From Myxococcus eversor (GTDB lineage Bacteria > Myxococcota > Myxococcia > Myxococcales > Myxococcaceae), in contig NZ_JAAIXY010000014.1 in assembly GCF_010894455.1 (NCBI RefSeq), positions 62,001-126,000 on the forward strand: 64,000 bases of DNA, given 5' to 3'. A model generated the notes under the pieces. That model did not search any database. It was not told the DNA's origin and saw only the letters and a list, made by a program, of their open reading frames with translations. How positions within the stretch are numbered: the stretch's first letter is position 1; the number at the start of each line of letters is the position of its first letter. Positions 35,753-41,202 of the stretch are shown here, one piece after another. A program made the translations under genes and the position numbers.

Positions 35753-36664
35753 TCAGCGGTAGGTGAGGGCCTGCGAGTCCATGCGGGCCGACTGGCCGGC
35801 GGTGAACGAGTTCATGCAGGAGTCGTCGGAGTAGTCCATGAAGTTGGTGATGGGGTCGTTGCCCGCGGCGGAGCAGGTGTTGCGGCCCGTGGGGCAGCCG
35901 TAGGCGGGAGAGGCCTCCGCCGGCGTGTCGCTGACCGAGTCACCCGAGCCGGAGCAGCCGCCCTGGAACGTGTGGTACAGGCCCAGCCAGTGGCCGACCT
36001 CGTGAGTGCCCGTGTCGCCCAGGTTGTACGGCGACGCGCTGCCACCGGGGACGCTGGAGAACAGAATCACGACGCCGTCCATCGACGGGTTGCTGGCGTA
36101 GCTGGAGGGGAACGTCGCCCAGCCGAGCAGGCCGCCGCTCAGGTTCGCGCTGTAGATGTTGAGCGCGTTCTTGCCGCCCGTGCGCAGCGCCGTCTTCATG
36201 GCGCGCTCGGCCGACGAGCCGGAGGCCAGGTTGTACCAGGTGGTGTTGGTGGTGCGGGTCGTCGCCGTCAGCGTGAACTTGAACGGCGTGTTCGCGTACG
36301 CGGCGTTCAGCACGTTCATCTGGTTCGTAATCATGGCGGCGGTGATGTCGCCGTTCGCCACGCCCGTGCCCTTGTTGATGACATGGAAGTAGGTGGGGAT
36401 GGTCACCGAGCCGTTCGCACGCGCGAAGTCAGACACGGCGCGCTCCATGGCGAAGCGGCCTTCCATCTCCGCCATCTCCTCGGCGGACGGGTTCACGCCA
36501 CAGCCACGGGCGTTGAGCACCTGCTGCGTGGGCTGCTCCTCCGCCGCGGGAGGCGTGGGCTCGCCCTGAGCCTCCGGGGGAGCGCTGGAACAGCCGGACA
36601 GCGCGGCGATGGTGCCGACGAGAACCGCGAAACGGCCGCCACGACGAGCAACGATACGAGACAT
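35753..36664 (-). CDS. M43 (pappalysin/cytophagalysin-type) metalloprotease lipoprotein
   Basis: A 303-residue secreted zinc protease. Lipobox ALSGC (Cys25), a Pro/Glu-rich spacer, a propeptide-like helix (about 60-85) and the catalytic domain with [11 protein letters not shown] at 221-231 (metzincin HExxHxxGxxH) and a Met-turn [11 protein letters not shown]43 proteases include cytophagalysin and ulilysin. ATG 36664 has GAGGAG upstream. It is divergent from the graspetide gene by 160 bases, so it could be unrelated or serve in processing of exported peptide (inference only). Confidence 0.83.
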
Positions 36665-36697
36665 TCCCGACTCCTCGGAAAATGCGGGGGAACCGGG

Positions 36698-36726
36698 ATA
36701 TTTATGAATGATTCCCCTTACGTCAA
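36698..36726 (-). promoter_or_regulatory. Candidate sigma-70-type promoter for the M43 gene
   Basis: On the minus strand TTGACG (36721-36726) is followed by a 17-base spacer and AAATAT (36698-36703), about 34 bases before the start codon. The -35 is part of an 11-base motif (CGTCAAACGGG on the plus strand) repeated at 36749-36759, so regulator binding here could affect both divergent transcripts. Confidence 0.4.
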
Positions 36727-36759
36727 ACGGGTCAAGAGGACCCCTCCCCGTCAAACGGG
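36721..36759. repeat. Pair of 11-bp direct repeats in the divergent promoter region
   Basis: CGTCAAACGGG occurs at 36721-36731 and again at 36749-36759, 28 bases start to start. Both copies lie between the divergent M43 and graspetide genes. Tandem copies at this spacing suggest binding of a dimeric regulator, though each copy also carries TTGAC on the minus strand. Confidence 0.45.
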
Positions 36760-36813
36760 CAATGTCTGGGGTTGCAGTGGCGTCTTGCCGCGTGGCGACA
36801 CACTCTTCGACGC

Positions 36814-36820
36814 AGGAGGT
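36814..36820 (+). promoter_or_regulatory. Strong ribosome binding site that fixes the graspetide precursor start
   Basis: AGGAGGT, four bases before GTG 36825. It is among the best Shine-Dalgarno matches in this window and supports translation of the 59-codon gene rather than a longer frame starting at 36708. Confidence 0.7.
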
Positions 36821-36824
36821 CGAC

Positions 36825-37004
36825 GTGAAACAAAGTGAAACATCGAGGCGTAGGGCGAAAGCTTCACACGGGCTGTTCGTGAGGGGCCTGGTGCCCGCGC
36901 GGGAGCAGGCCGAGGAGGGCCCGAAGAAGCCAAGGCCCGGACAGGTGACGACGATGATGGTGGGTGAGGAGACGAAGGACGGGGACTCGGGCACGCGCGA
37001 CTGA
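36825..37004 (+). CDS. Graspetide (plesiocin-type) precursor peptide
   Basis: A 59-residue peptide: a basic N-terminus (Arg8-Arg10), a leader-like segment with LFVRGL at 17-22, a Glu/Pro/Lys linker and a single core TTMMVGEE at residues 42-49, then a hydrophilic tail. TTxxxxEE is the core signature of group 2 omega-ester peptides such as plesiocin, in which two Thr side chains are ester-linked to two Glu carboxylates by an ATP-grasp ligase. The cognate ligase gene follows 52 bases downstream on the same strand. GTG 36825 has an AGGAGGT site. Plesiocin precursors carry several copies of the motif; one copy here is unusual. The assignment rests on motif plus neighbour and needs product evidence. 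Confidence 0.75.
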
Positions 37005-37056
37005 CGCGGTGCACGGTGCTGGCGGCCTCGCGGGGCATCTGGTTCGCTCTCAAACC

Positions 37057-38019
37057 ATGACGCAAGCGGCGGGGACAGGCGTGGTGGTGTTGGTGGGCTC
37101 TCGCGAGGACGCGCACGTGCGGGAGGTGGCGCGGCGCCTGGGCGCGGAGGGCGTGGACAGCGCCATCGTCGACACGCTGGCCTTCCCCGACGAGACGCGG
37201 ATATCGCTCACGGAGGAGTTGGACGGAATCCTCGTGGACGGGCGCGCCGTGGGACGGCCCGCCGCCGTGTACCTGCGCGGCCTGCACTCGCACCCGCTGG
37301 CCTTCATGGTGGACGCGGAGGAGGCCATGACGGAGGACTGGCGCACCACGCTCACCGCGTTCCGTGAGAAGGCCGCGCTGCTCCTGGGGCTCATCGGTCG
37401 GTGGGAGCGGCTCGGCGTGCCGATGTACAACCCGCCCTCCGCGGATTGGGTGCTGCACAAGCCGGCGCAGCTCGCCGCGCTGAGGGCCGCGGGGTTGCCG
37501 GTGCCTCGGACGCTGTGGACGAATGACGCGGAGGCGGTGCGCCGCTTCGCCGCGAGCGGACGCGTGGCCTACAAGCCCATCCTGGGGGGCGCCGCCACGC
37601 GGGAGCTGCTGCCGGAGGACCTCACGGAGGAGCGGCTCGCCACGCTGGGCGCCGCGCCGGTGACGTTCCAGGAGCTGCTGCCCGGAGAGGATTTGCGGGT
37701 GTACGTGCTGGACGGCGAGGTCATCGCGGCCCTGCGCATCGTCACGGCGGCGCTCGACTTCCGTCAGAACGAGGAGCGGATGGAGCAGGTGGTGCTGCCG
37801 GCGGAGGTGGCTCGACAGTGCGTGAAGGCGTGCGAGGTGTTGGGCCTGAGGTGGACGGGGCTGGACCTGAAGCGCGGAATGGATGGGGAGCTCAAGTTCC
37901 TGGAGCTGAACGGCTCACCCATGTTCCTGGGGTTCGACGCCGGCGCGGGGACGGACGTGGCGGGACACCTCACGCGGACGCTGGTCCGGCACGCGCGTCG
38001 CGCTTCATCGCCACAGTGA
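37057..38019 (+). CDS. Graspetide-type ATP-grasp ester ligase (peptide macrocyclase)
   Basis: A 320-residue ATP-grasp enzyme. Recognisable parts: a pre-grasp domain (about 8-125), the linker [38 protein letters not shown] (127-164, cut here by domain), with the PRT..TND.EAVR.F pattern typical of MdnB/MdnC/PsnB-type macrocyclases, an ATP-binding Lys173 (AYKPILGG), Glu206 ([13 protein letters not shown]), and the metal motif LELNGSP with Glu283 and Asn285. The predicted reaction is ATP-dependent phosphorylation of core Glu side chains and ester closure by core Thr hydroxyls. RimK-type ligases are the alternative, but the adjacent TTxxxxEE precursor favours a graspetide role. The last 15 bases overlap the convergent gene at 38005. 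Confidence 0.78.
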
Positions 38020-38190
38020 TGCGAGCACCGTGCGGGACGCCATCCACGCCAGCGCGCCGAGCACCACGACGAGCACGGCGGTGAACAGCAGCACCCGGTG
38101 GGGACGCGGGTGCATCACCGCGCGCAGCTCCTCCGTCATCACGGGGTCCTCGTCGACGTCGTCCACGTCATGGCTGGGCTCGGGCGTCAT
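38005..38190 (-). CDS. Small single-pass membrane protein coupled to the exporter
   Basis: A 61-residue protein: an acidic N-terminus (DVDDVDEDP), a basic patch MHPRPHR, then one membrane helix (VLLFTAVLVVVLGALAWMA) and a short end. Its ATG overlaps the ABC exporter stop as ATGA, so it is probably made with the exporter. Its layout recalls the first helix of HlyD-type adaptors but no adaptor body follows, so I would not call it one. Its 3' end overlaps that of the ATP-grasp gene on the opposite strand. Confidence 0.6.
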   Translation of the reverse strand: MTPEPSHDVDDVDEDPVMTEELRAVMHPRPHRVLLFTAVLVVVLGALAWMASRTVLASLWR

Positions 38191-40457
38191 CGCTGCTCCA
38201 TCTGGTTCTCGACGAGCGCGCGGTAGCGGCCGTTCGGCAGCACCACCAGCTCGTCATGGGTGCCCTCCTCGACGACACGGCCCTTGTCGAGCACGACAAT
38301 CTTGTCCGCGCGACGCACGGTGGACAGCCGGTGGGCCACGACGACGAGCGTGCGCCCCGCCGCCTCTCGCTGGAGGGCCTCGGTAATCGCGCGCTCCAGC
38401 GCCGCGTCCAGGTGGCTGGTGGCCTCGTCGAGGAACATCACGCGCGGCTGTCTGTAGATGGCGCGCGCGAGCTGGAGCCGCTGCTCCTCGCCTCCGGACA
38501 GGCGCACGCCCGCCTCGCCAATCCGCGTCTTCAGGCCGTTGGGCAGCGCGAGCAGCTCGTCCAGGCACGCGGTGCGCGCGGCATGCAGCAGGCGCTCCGG
38601 GTCCGGGGCCTCGTCCCCCAGCGCGATGTTCTCCGCCAACGTGCCGTCAAAGATGTCCGTCTTTTGGAAGACGAAGGCCACCGAGCGGCGCAGCGCCGTC
38701 GGTTCGAACGTCTCCAGGGGCTGGCCGTCGTAGAGGACTCGGCCCTGCTCGGGGCGATAGAGGCCATAGAGGACCTGGGTGAGCGTCGTCTTGCCCGCGC
38801 CCGAGCGGCCGACAATCGCCGTCATCTTCCCCGCCGGCACGGTGAAGCTCACGTTGTCCAGCACGGGCCGCTCGTTGGGCGAGCCGTAGCGGAAGGTGAC
38901 GCCGTCCAGTCGGAGCTCGGGGGCCTGGGTGAGCGCGCCGGTGACAGGGGCGGTGTCGTCGCGCAGCTCGGGCTGGGACTCGTAGACGATGTCCACGCGG
39001 CGCAGGGAGATGACGACGTCCTGGAGCTGATGGATGAACATCACCAGGTTCTGCATCGGCGCGAGCGCGAGCCCGAGGATGGCGAGCGTGGCGACCATCT
39101 GCCCCAGCGTGAGCTGCCCCTGGAGCACGAGGTGCGCCTCGTAGACGAGGATGCCCACGTACATGGCCTGGTTGACGAGCTGCGCGCCAGAGGTGTGGAC
39201 GGTGTCGTGCAGCCAGATGCGGCGCGCGGCCTCGGCCTCGCGAGCCTGGAGCTTCTCCCAGCGGGTGCGGACCTGGCGCTCGGCGCCGCAGGCCTTGAGC
39301 GTCTGGATGCCGCCGAGCATCTGCAGCTCCAGCCGACTCGCCTCGGCGGCGACCCGGAAGCGCTGGTGGTCCAGCACGGTGCGCCGAGGCATCAGCACCA
39401 GCGTCCACAGCGAGTACAGCGTCGCGCAGGCGGCGAAGATGCCGAACACGGTGGCGTCGTAGAGGAAGAGCACGACGCCGTAGCCCACCAGCATCACCAA
39501 ATCGAGCAGCACGGACACCGACGCGCCCTGGAGGACGCGGCGGATGCGCTGGTGGTCCTCGATGCGCTTGAGCAAATCACCGCGGTGGCGCCGCGCGAAG
39601 AACGTCACCGGCAGGGACAGCAGGCGCTTCCAGAACCGTGCGAGCAGGAGGGCGGAGAAGCCTCGGGACAACACGAAGAGTCCCGCGCCGCGCGCGATGG
39701 CCACTGCGATTTGAGCGACGACGAGCACGCCGAGGCCCACACCGATGGCGGTGAGCAAAGACACGTTCTTGCCGCCCACCGCCTTGTCGACGAGCCCCTG
39801 GATGAGCAGGGGCTGGGCGAGCGCCAGTGCCTGGAGGAGTACGGTGGTGACGAACACCTGGAACAGCAGCAGGCGGTAGCGCAGCAGCCCCCGACCGAAG
39901 CGGCTCAGCGCGCCGAGACGACGCGCGGGAACGGAGGCGACGGGAAGCGCGACGGGACGGAAGAGCGCGTCGGTGGGCGCCAGCGAGAGGAGGATTCCAT
40001 CCCAGTGCCCACCGAGCTTCGCGCGAGGGATGCGTCGGAGGCCCTGGGCAGGGTCTCCGATGACGGCCTCCTTGGGAGTGACGGAGTAGAGGACGACGAA
40101 GTGGTTGTCCTCCCAATGGGCGATGCCGGGGAGGAGCGCCTGGCCCTCCTCATCCTCCAGCTCGGAAGGGTCCTCGACGTGGAAGGCGCGGACCTTGAAG
40201 CCCACCTGCTCGGCGGCGCTGGCGAGGTCCGGCAGCGAGGTGCCCACCACCTGCACGTGCGCGAGTTCCTTGAGCGCGGCGAGCGAGTGCGTGGCGCCGT
40301 GGTACGCGGAGACCATCTCCAGACACGCGGGGCCACAGTCGGCCTCCTCGAGCTGGTGGCGCAGGGGATACCGTTCCAGGGCGACGGCGAGCCGGGAGCG
40401 AGGCACACCGGAATCGCTATCACGGAGCGTGGCGAGCAACCAGTCACCGCCTGGCAC
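38187..40457 (-). CDS. Peptidase-containing ABC transporter (C39 type)
   Basis: A polypeptide of about 756 residues with all three parts of a PCAT exporter. The N-terminal C39 peptidase shows Cys41 (EADCGPAC), His119 (DNHFVVL) and Asp135 (IGDP). The membrane domain covers about 180-480. The ATPase shows GRSGAGKTT, LSGGEEQRLQLARA and VMFLDEATSHLD. Such exporters cut leader peptides after Gly-Gly or Gly-Ala while exporting. No HlyD/outer-membrane partner adjoins and the nearby graspetide leader has no GG, so the cargo is uncertain. I took GTG 40457; a longer frame from 40532 would overlap the immunity gene. It follows SitI after 31 bases on the same strand. Confidence 0.83.
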   Translation of the reverse strand: MPGGDWLLATLRDSDSGVPRSRLAVALERYPLRHQLEEADCGPACLEMVSAYHGATHSLAALKELAHVQVVGTSLPDLASAAEQVGFKVRAFHVEDPSELEDEEGQALLPGIAHWEDNHFVVLYSVTPKEAVIGDPAQGLRRIPRAKLGGHWDGILLSLAPTDALFRPVALPVASVPARRLGALSRFGRGLLRYRLLLFQVFVTTVLLQALALAQPLLIQGLVDKAVGGKNVSLLTAIGVGLGVLVVAQIAVAIARGAGLFVLSRGFSALLLARFWKRLLSLPVTFFARRHRGDLLKRIEDHQRIRRVLQGASVSVLLDLVMLVGYGVVLFLYDATVFGIFAACATLYSLWTLVLMPRRTVLDHQRFRVAAEASRLELQMLGGIQTLKACGAERQVRTRWEKLQAREAEAARRIWLHDTVHTSGAQLVNQAMYVGILVYEAHLVLQGQLTLGQMVATLAILGLALAPMQNLVMFIHQLQDVVISLRRVDIVYESQPELRDDTAPVTGALTQAPELRLDGVTFRYGSPNERPVLDNVSFTVPAGKMTAIVGRSGAGKTTLTQVLYGLYRPEQGRVLYDGQPLETFEPTALRRSVAFVFQKTDIFDGTLAENIALGDEAPDPERLLHAARTACLDELLALPNGLKTRIGEAGVRLSGGEEQRLQLARAIYRQPRVMFLDEATSHLDAALERAITEALQREAAGRTLVVVAHRLSTVRRADKIVVLDKGRVVEEGTHDELVVLPNGRYRALVENQMEQR

Positions 40458-40488
40458 GACGCAAGCAGTCCAGACAGGGACGCAAGGC

Positions 40489-41202
40489 TCAGCGCGTAGG
40501 CACCTCGGTGAACGCCACTTCCTCCAAGCCAAGCTGGCTCACCGTGGACATGAAGCGCTCCGTCGCCACGATGATGGTCTGGAAGTTCGCGAGCCTGAAG
40601 ACATCCCGGTCCCGCGGCAGCGAGGCTTCATCCAGGACAGGCCGCGAGGGAAAGCTGAACGCGAGTCTGCCGCACGTCCGACACGGAGGAGCCAACCCCT
40701 TGGGAAAACAGCTCGGATGGAGCAGTCCACGAGGCTCCACCTGAAGCTCCAACAACTCCGGAGGATTCTTGCCCTGGAGCCTCAACTCCGTGCGACAGCC
40801 ATGGAGCCCCTGTACGCCTTCGGAACGCAACCTCTCTAGCGCCTCGGCACGCACGAGCAGCGTCCATGGGTACAGCAGCACGAGCTGTGGAAACGAGCCG
40901 CGCCCACCTCCCACCAGGGTGCCAAAGGTCGTTCCAGGGGTCAGTGTCGCGCCGTCGGGAACCAGGGGCCGCACAGACTCCCGCAGTCTCGTGAACTCCT
41001 CGAAACGCTCCTCGACACGGGCCCTGAATCGCGCCGGGTCCGACACATCAGACAGGTCCACGCTCGGATACGACTCGCCGATTCCGCTCCAGACTTCATC
41101 GCAGTCGGGGCAGTGGATGCCAGGCAGGAGCCACGGGTGCCGCGCCTGAATCTCCCAGGCGTAGCGCGAAGGACGAGCGTCACCGAGCTGGAACCACCGC
41201 AT
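40489..41202 (-). CDS. SitI6-family double-CXXCG immunity protein
   Basis: A 237-residue protein matching the TIGR02264 'double-CXXCG' paralog family, known from Myxococcus as immunity partners of SitA6 toxins. Family landmarks: LLPGIHCPDCDEVWSGIGESYPSVDLS (Cys31, Cys34), LLVRAEALERLRSEGVQG, the PPELLELQVEP segment, the second pair CRTCGR (Cys174, Cys177), and FRLANFQTIIVATERF near the end. The first motif is CPDCD, with Asp replacing the usual Gly, so the zinc-ribbon-like knuckle is altered. The start is 2 bases from the SitA stop, so toxin and immunity are made together. Confidence 0.82.
   Translation of the reverse strand: MRWFQLGDARPSRYAWEIQARHPWLLPGIHCPDCDEVWSGIGESYPSVDLSDVSDPARFRARVEERFEEFTRLRESVRPLVPDGATLTPGTTFGTLVGGGRGSFPQLVLLYPWTLLVRAEALERLRSEGVQGLHGCRTELRLQGKNPPELLELQVEPRGLLHPSCFPKGLAPPCRTCGRLAFSFPSRPVLDEASLPRDRDVFRLANFQTIIVATERFMSTVSQLGLEEVAFTEVPTR

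Follow-up and report, generated by a model that had tools for sequence, protein, structure and literature searches.

Plesiocin, which PMC9576775 describes as the prototype of the group 2 graspetides, is reported to carry four cores (PMC12291112), each closed by two esters in a hairpin topology (PMC12291112, PMC13097080), and its potency is described as increasing as more motifs are cyclised (PMC13097080). More generally, characterised graspetides are described as protease inhibitors (PMC8939145), a 2026 survey reports NHLM-type transporters to be frequent with group 2 members (PMC13097080), and PMC13039773 describes many graspetide gene clusters as having no identifiable leader protease. Here we describe a locus of Myxococcus eversor that has in common with the plesiocin system (PsnA2/PsnB) a PsnB-type ligase, an LFxxxL leader and a TTxxxxEE core, and that very probably represents a plesiocin-type (group 2) graspetide locus whose precursor would be docked, bicyclised, exported and trimmed. 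It differs from the plesiocin system in having a precursor with one core rather than four. Among the graspetide papers listed for Myxococcus, Myxococcota or metalloproteases, none names the locus in its title or in the opening lines of its abstract.

The locus lies in a stretch of 64,000 nucleotides, the whole of which is referred to below as the window, and comprises the following features:

35753..36664, minus strand: M43 (pappalysin-type) metalloprotease, possible lipoprotein (PF05572, 1.3e-17), divergent from the precursor gene
36665..36824, no strand: divergent intergenic region of 160 bases (from the sequence), presumed shared regulatory region of the M43 gene and the precursor
36814..36820, plus strand: ribosome-binding site AGGAGGT (from the sequence), 4 bases 5' of the GTG start
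36825..37004, plus strand: predicted graspetide precursor gene, 59 codons, GTG start (of the 17 ligase orthologues in the genus, 15 have an orthologue of this gene beside them)
36873..36890, plus strand: leader motif LFVRGL, residues 17-22, putative ligase-docking motif (LFxxDL in most relatives)
36948..36971, plus strand: core TTMMVGEE, residues 42-49, with predicted nested esters Thr43-Glu48 and Thr42-Glu49
37057..38019, plus strand: PsnB-type ATP-grasp macrocyclase, 320 aa, carrying LELNGSP (PDB 7drm match, profile and tree)
38005..38190, minus strand: small protein with a hydrophobic stretch (judged by eye), between ligase and exporter (open reading frame)
38187..40532, minus strand: peptidase-C39 ABC exporter (PCAT, NHLM-like; Pfam C39, ABC_membrane and ABC_tran; co-occurrence)

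Precursor gene

The elements on which the first-pass annotation had built its reading, namely AGGAGGT, the GTG start, the stop, the gap of 52 bases between the precursor stop (ending at 37004) and the ligase ATG (37057), LFVRGL, TTMMVGEE and the ligase motifs, are all present at the positions listed above. The position of the start is supported by L099 and L100, the two closest relatives, which have ATG at the equivalent position. The ribosome-binding site alone is a weak argument for the gene, since the two strands of the window together contain AGGAGG 82 times. Translation of the window in six frames yields a single TT....EE, with LF[IV]xx[LW] upstream of it, whereas 60 simulated windows with the dinucleotide frequencies of the window contained 17 occurrences of TT....EE and none with the leader motif.

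Neither Pfam nor NCBIfam holds a family that matches the precursor, and searching it directly against the PDB returned a single, uninformative match, to a ribosomal protein (E 0.77). PsnA2 was instead connected to the precursor by way of the relative in L110. The peptide present in the PsnB entries of the PDB, PsnA2(14-38), LFIEDLGKVTGGKGGPYTTLAIGEE, is a one-core substrate with the same anatomy as the window precursor, and the resemblance of the natural precursor to this substrate offers a compact native system for the study of the ligase. In 7drm, PsnA2(14-38) begins LFIEDL, which the LFVRGL of the window resembles, with glycine in place of the acidic residue (Asp). PsnA2 also has a double-glycine site at offset 10 from LF, which is absent from the window precursor.

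Ligase

The best match of the window ligase in the PDB is 7drm_A (2.5e-97, 329 bits), which is identified as PsnB because its partner chain was deposited as the PsnA2(14-38) precursor peptide. The next match, 5ig9, which we take to be MdnC, reaches 41 bits, and 5ig8, presumably MdnB, 23 bits; these microviridin ligases belong to the same ATP-grasp peptide ligase family, and the microviridin core TxKxPSD is absent from the window precursor. Solved RimK-type enzymes score no more than 37 bits in the same search, and a profile built from 12 ligase sequences gives PsnB 399 bits and every other PDB entry 60 or fewer. No NCBIfam model recognises the ligase at its own cut-off: the best, TIGR04187 (GRASP_SAV_5884), scores 75.7 bits against a cut-off of 350, and the MvdC and MvdD ligase models score 51.9 and 52.9 bits against cut-offs of 425 and 475.

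It is extremely improbable that the enzyme is RimK-like or another amino-acid ligase and that the reading frame upstream of it arose by chance. Pfam does assign the ligase to RimK (PF08443) only, and two RimK-family NCBIfam models score it at 55-57 bits; PsnB nevertheless scores some 290 bits more than any RimK-type structure, and the NCBIfam, PDB and profile scores together rule out a RimK-type or amino-acid ligase. A chance reading frame is likewise ruled out by pattern controls, by the synonymous change of core codons in a peptide that adjoins 15 of 17 ligase orthologues, and by the 60 simulated windows, which contain no comparable open reading frame.

In a ligase tree of 49 rows, the window falls in a group of 28 rows (support 82/99) together with Sorangium and other Myxococcaceae, and this group is nested in a clade of 36 rows that holds PsnB (91/80). 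Both forks are drawn open and PsnB sits on a long branch; the 36-row clade also includes L023, L025 and L026 (long branch), for which no precursor was found. The nearest named relative of the ligase is that of Myxococcus qinghaiensis (L099), at 95% identity. The PDB scores, the profile and the tree thus agree with the expectation of the first-pass annotation that the ligase groups with PsnB and not with RimK.

Distribution and conservation in the genus

Our sample of the genus comprised 27 genomes, records named Pyxidicoccus among them. A ligase orthologue (E below 1e-150) is present in 17, and the other ten have no ligase at E <= 1e-45. A single-core TTMxVGEE peptide lies just 5' of the ligase in 15 of the 17, which bears out the proposal that a TTxxxxEE peptide is conserved beside orthologous ligases; the two orthologues with no adjacent precursor are L088/L102 (G019) and L091/L103 (G012). 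At the DNA level, the TTMxVGEE pattern has one match in the 11.39-Mb source genome of the window (reversed control 0), and a looser core pattern matches 17 of the 27 genomes, the same 17 that carry the ligase (reversed control 0/27), with the matches in G012 and G019 sitting elsewhere in the genome and not at the ligase. Both L088 and L091 keep the ligase and the exporter and have lost the single-core precursor, and a multi-core array is found elsewhere in each genome; their ligases may act in trans, or may be decaying.

Across the 15 members of the genus, pS in the core is 0.37 and pN 0.07, with synonymous codon variation at the first Thr, Val, Gly, and the Glu residues at core positions 7 and 8. 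For the entire precursor, dN/dS ranges from 0.14 to 0.67 over 11 pairs, as estimates without a significance test; the window precursor gives 0.67 against L099, its nearest relative, and 0.51 against L100, and the former value, as the highest of the 11, is therefore the weakest for selection.

To place the precursor in a broader context, we considered a set of 30 precursors, 15 from the genus and 15 from outside it, all collected by means of TT....EE, so that TT and the acidic pair are found in 30/30 partly by construction and precursors with other cores would be missed. LF also occurs in all 30, although the scans by which they were first detected did not require it. At the fifth position of the LF motif, 28 precursors have Asp or Glu, and the window precursor and L100 have Gly, which speaks slightly against strong docking of the window precursor.

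This loss of the acidic leader residue, confined to two of the 30 precursors, is one sign that the system might be decaying in the source species, leaving an intact ligase beside a precursor that works poorly because of the Gly for Asp exchange and the lost double glycine. Two genomes of the genus with a ligase and no adjacent precursor, together with the ten of 27 that have no ligase (E <= 1e-45) and the partial ligase match of L111, point in the same direction. However, the core is conserved, the ribosome-binding site is strong, the ligase frame is full-length and open, and the precursor dN/dS is below 1 against both L099 (0.67) and L100 (0.51), again as estimates without a significance test. 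We therefore regard decay as very unlikely and favour an intact graspetide locus, which would be functional.

Number of cores

Single-core precursors account for 29 of the 30, drawn from Myxococcaceae, Sorangium cellulosum and Acidobacteria MAGs, and L110, the sole exception, combines three perfect cores with an imperfect one. Judging from these sequences, close relatives of the window ligase as a rule have precursors with one core. The first-pass annotation had called the single core unusual, which holds in comparison with plesiocin and fails in comparison with these close relatives. Several core repeats, a feature of plesiocin, are absent from the window precursor, and we did not treat them as defining. 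Reduced cores are also not unheard of, in that PMC9576775 describes another group 2 peptide that is without one donor/acceptor residue set.

The single-core relatives outside the genus (Sorangium cellulosum So ce26, other Myxococcaceae and Acidobacteria MAGs: L106, L096, L097, L116-L122, L098, L108 and L109) have one TTxxxxEE, an LFxx[DE]L leader and a ligase that shares 53-73% identity with the window ligase. Of their 14 precursors, nine differ from the window precursor in having a double glycine at offset 10 and cysteines in or around the core, and five (L098 and L119-L122) are without the double glycine, as in the window. Several cysteines are found in or around the core in L096, L097, L106, L108, L109 and L116-L118, for example CPQFTTLACGEEANGCSGC in L106, and may add disulfides to the ester rings.

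Two-core precursors adjoin L050 and L053, whose ligases are about 40% identical to that of the window. In addition, a separate locus with an array of 11-15 cores is present in five members of the genus (L083, L084, L085, L086 and L092). These arrays have TTxxxxEE cores as in the window and differ in their FIKYE leader and their many cores of mixed sequence. An ATP-grasp ligase adjoins the array in four of these loci (L083-L086), and was not seen in the 4-kb stretch of G012; the four array ligases are 33-35% identical to that of the window and fall in a separate clade of eight rows (100/99) with the two-core relatives and two others. The arrays, which mix TTLAVGEE, TTKALGEE and TTMAVGEE, might act as natural inhibitors of more than one type of protease. 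With one-core and 11-15-core versions present in one genus, the effect of valency can be compared within the genus.

Exporter and double-glycine site

The first-pass annotation had described a locus of two genes, a view that is probably too narrow, since most of the loci examined in the genus are flanked by a C39 exporter and an M43 metalloprotease. Neighbouring genes were scored in stretches of 12-20 kb at more than 80 bits. An exporter orthologue (E <= 1e-180) is present in 12 of the 17 ligase-positive genomes of the genus and in none of the ten ligase-negative genomes (Fisher p 3.6e-4, a value that ignores the kinship of the genomes), and in 12/12 genomes having it the exporter and the ligase are separated by a few hundred bases. 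This adjacency in 12 of 17, set against its absence from the ten genomes with no ligase, suggests that the locus is probably larger than two genes, and the exporter likely exports the graspetide product.

The best NCBIfam model for the exporter is TIGR03796, at 476 bits and under its cut-off of 853, and the true start of the protein probably lies downstream of the first start codon of the open reading frame. The small protein encoded at 38005..38190 has matches at 69-90% identity in L088, L090, L093, L099 and L101, and may belong to the exporter side of the locus.

A double glycine at a spacing of exactly 10 residues from the L of LF, on its C-terminal side, is found in PsnA2 and in ten of the 15 precursors from outside the genus (L096, L097, L106, L108a, L108b, L109, L110, L116, L117 and L118). 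Among the seven of these loci whose neighbourhood could be judged (L108 and L109, on contigs of 4-5 kb, are left out of the count), six have a C39 exporter, 36% identical to that of the window in L110 and 67-74% in the other five, whereas in L097 no such exporter is present; no M43 gene was found in the stretches examined for these seven. GK or GD replaces GG in L098 and L119-L122, which represent two other genera, and neither an exporter nor M43 was found within 12-20 kb of these loci. The double glycine is absent at offset 10 from all 15 precursors of the genus, two of which, L093 and L113, have GG eight residues further on. The window precursor itself has no GG before the core (relaxed GA and GS variants were judged by eye), and so does not look like a usual C39 substrate. 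The exporter of the window, like those in 20 aligned rows, retains intact C39 residues (DCG[PA]AC, H[FY]VV and DP). Thus the genus keeps a peptidase-exporter while its presumed cargo is without the usual cut site. The persistence of LFxx[DE]L where GG is lost further suggests that the LF part of the leader serves the ligase and the GG part the exporter.

M43 metalloprotease

The M43 gene is found in 11 of the 12 exporter-bearing loci of the genus and in none of the five exporter-less loci. It adjoins the precursor, except in L091, which has no precursor and where it adjoins the ligase, and the sole exporter-bearing locus in which it is missing is L088, likewise without a precursor; M43 therefore stands beside the precursor in all ten loci that have a precursor and an exporter but no double glycine at offset 10. 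Neither M43 nor the exporter was found in the stretches of 13-20 kb examined for L089, L094, L104, L105 and L115. Because the two genes flank the precursor-ligase pair on opposite sides, their joint absence cannot be explained by one deletion that spared the pair, if both were ancestral.

The M43 proteins at these loci form two lineages separated by a branch with support 1.000, in an unrooted tree of 19 rows, with one gene represented by two rows, that shows lineages and not the order of events. In the clade of the window, the gene is divergent from the precursor and the protein groups with a paralogue encoded elsewhere in the source genome (0.958), and in the Pyxidicoccus-like clade and L095, among whose proteins a G010 paralogue also falls, the gene is co-directional with the precursor. 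This implies either two separate recruitments of M43 or the replacement of one M43 by another. The window protein has a lipobox-like LSGC, as judged by eye.

These patterns bear on the possibility that M43 and the C39 exporter are unconnected with the peptide, whose export and trimming would then depend on genes elsewhere in the genome. Such a reading is possible, if doubtful. It would accommodate the five ligase-bearing genomes that keep precursor and ligase with neither gene within 13-20 kb, the missing double-glycine motif of the window precursor, and the position of both genes on the strand opposite to the precursor in the window; it fits poorly with the restriction of the exporter to ligase-positive genomes and of M43 to exporter-bearing loci, and with the situation outside the genus, where an exporter 71-74% identical to that of the window adjoins a GG-bearing precursor in four g17 loci (L096, L116, L117 and L118) and one 67% identical lies at most 6 kb from a GG-bearing precursor in Sorangium. 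For M43 in particular, matches at E <= 1e-30 number three in the source genome, four in G010, three in G019 and none in G006, so that these genes are common enough to make a chance neighbour possible. Alternatively, M43 may act as a co-secreted digestive enzyme, or be a mere neighbour.

Assuming that both genes do belong to the locus, it is conceivable, though on balance unlikely, that the genus has changed its route of maturation, losing the offset-10 double glycine, retaining the docking motif and leaving M43 to remove the leader outside the cytoplasm after C39 export. M43 genes from both lineages and in both orientations are found at this position, and the joint absence of M43 and exporter falls in a single clade. 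The locus would in this way supply a candidate leader protease, and M43, if the proposal is true, would add a new type to the leader peptidases; a 2023 review on the leader proteases of RiPPs (PMC10885120) does not use the term M43 in its main text. The same review describes a Myxococcus fulvus lanthipeptide with a C39 exporter and an M61 protease, and a further metalloprotease precedent in RiPP trimming is provided by the M1 enzymes described as trimming class I microviridins (PMC13039773).

Predicted maturation and activity

We propose that the LFVRGL motif of the precursor docks on the PsnB-type ligase, which would use ATP to activate Glu48 and Glu49 and join them to Thr43 and Thr42, respectively, the pairing of Thr with Glu in TTMMVGEE being predicted. 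Two nested esters would form, yielding a hairpin with the loss of two waters. Export in the source species would most likely proceed through the adjoining C39-type ABC exporter, and the product would be trimmed to a short peptide around the core. By analogy with plesiocin, the bicyclic product may inhibit a serine protease, and since the potency of plesiocin scales with its motifs, a product with a single core would inhibit monovalently. Its protease preference would be set by the loop residue. Counted against this explanation are the shortfall to TIGR04187, the leader glycine, the dN/dS of 0.67, the two of 17 ligases with no adjacent precursor, the missing GG site for the C39 exporter, and the long branch of PsnB with its open fork.

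Additional observations

Four ligase orthologues, L011, L012, L013 and L015, were considered as candidates broken by an internal TAG; this was ruled out because the alignment runs past the true stop, and the four are intact. On the minus strand of L089 (10263-10424), a degenerate second core, VTTLQADEE, lies behind the precursor in another frame and looks like the trace of a duplicated core. In Myxococcus sp. CA023 (L111), the partial ligase match reaches 59% identity in its best segment, residues 132-314, and is perhaps the remnant of a lost locus. The ligase of a Chromatiales MAG (L107) is 56% identical to that of the window, and two scans of 13 kb around it found no TTxxxxEE or LF-type precursor; this ligase possibly acts on a different core motif. 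Finally, L104 (BNCN01000009.1) is titled Comamonas sp. KCTC 72670, and its ligase, precursor and matched neighbours are all Myxococcus-like, so that it is probably a mislabelled genome.
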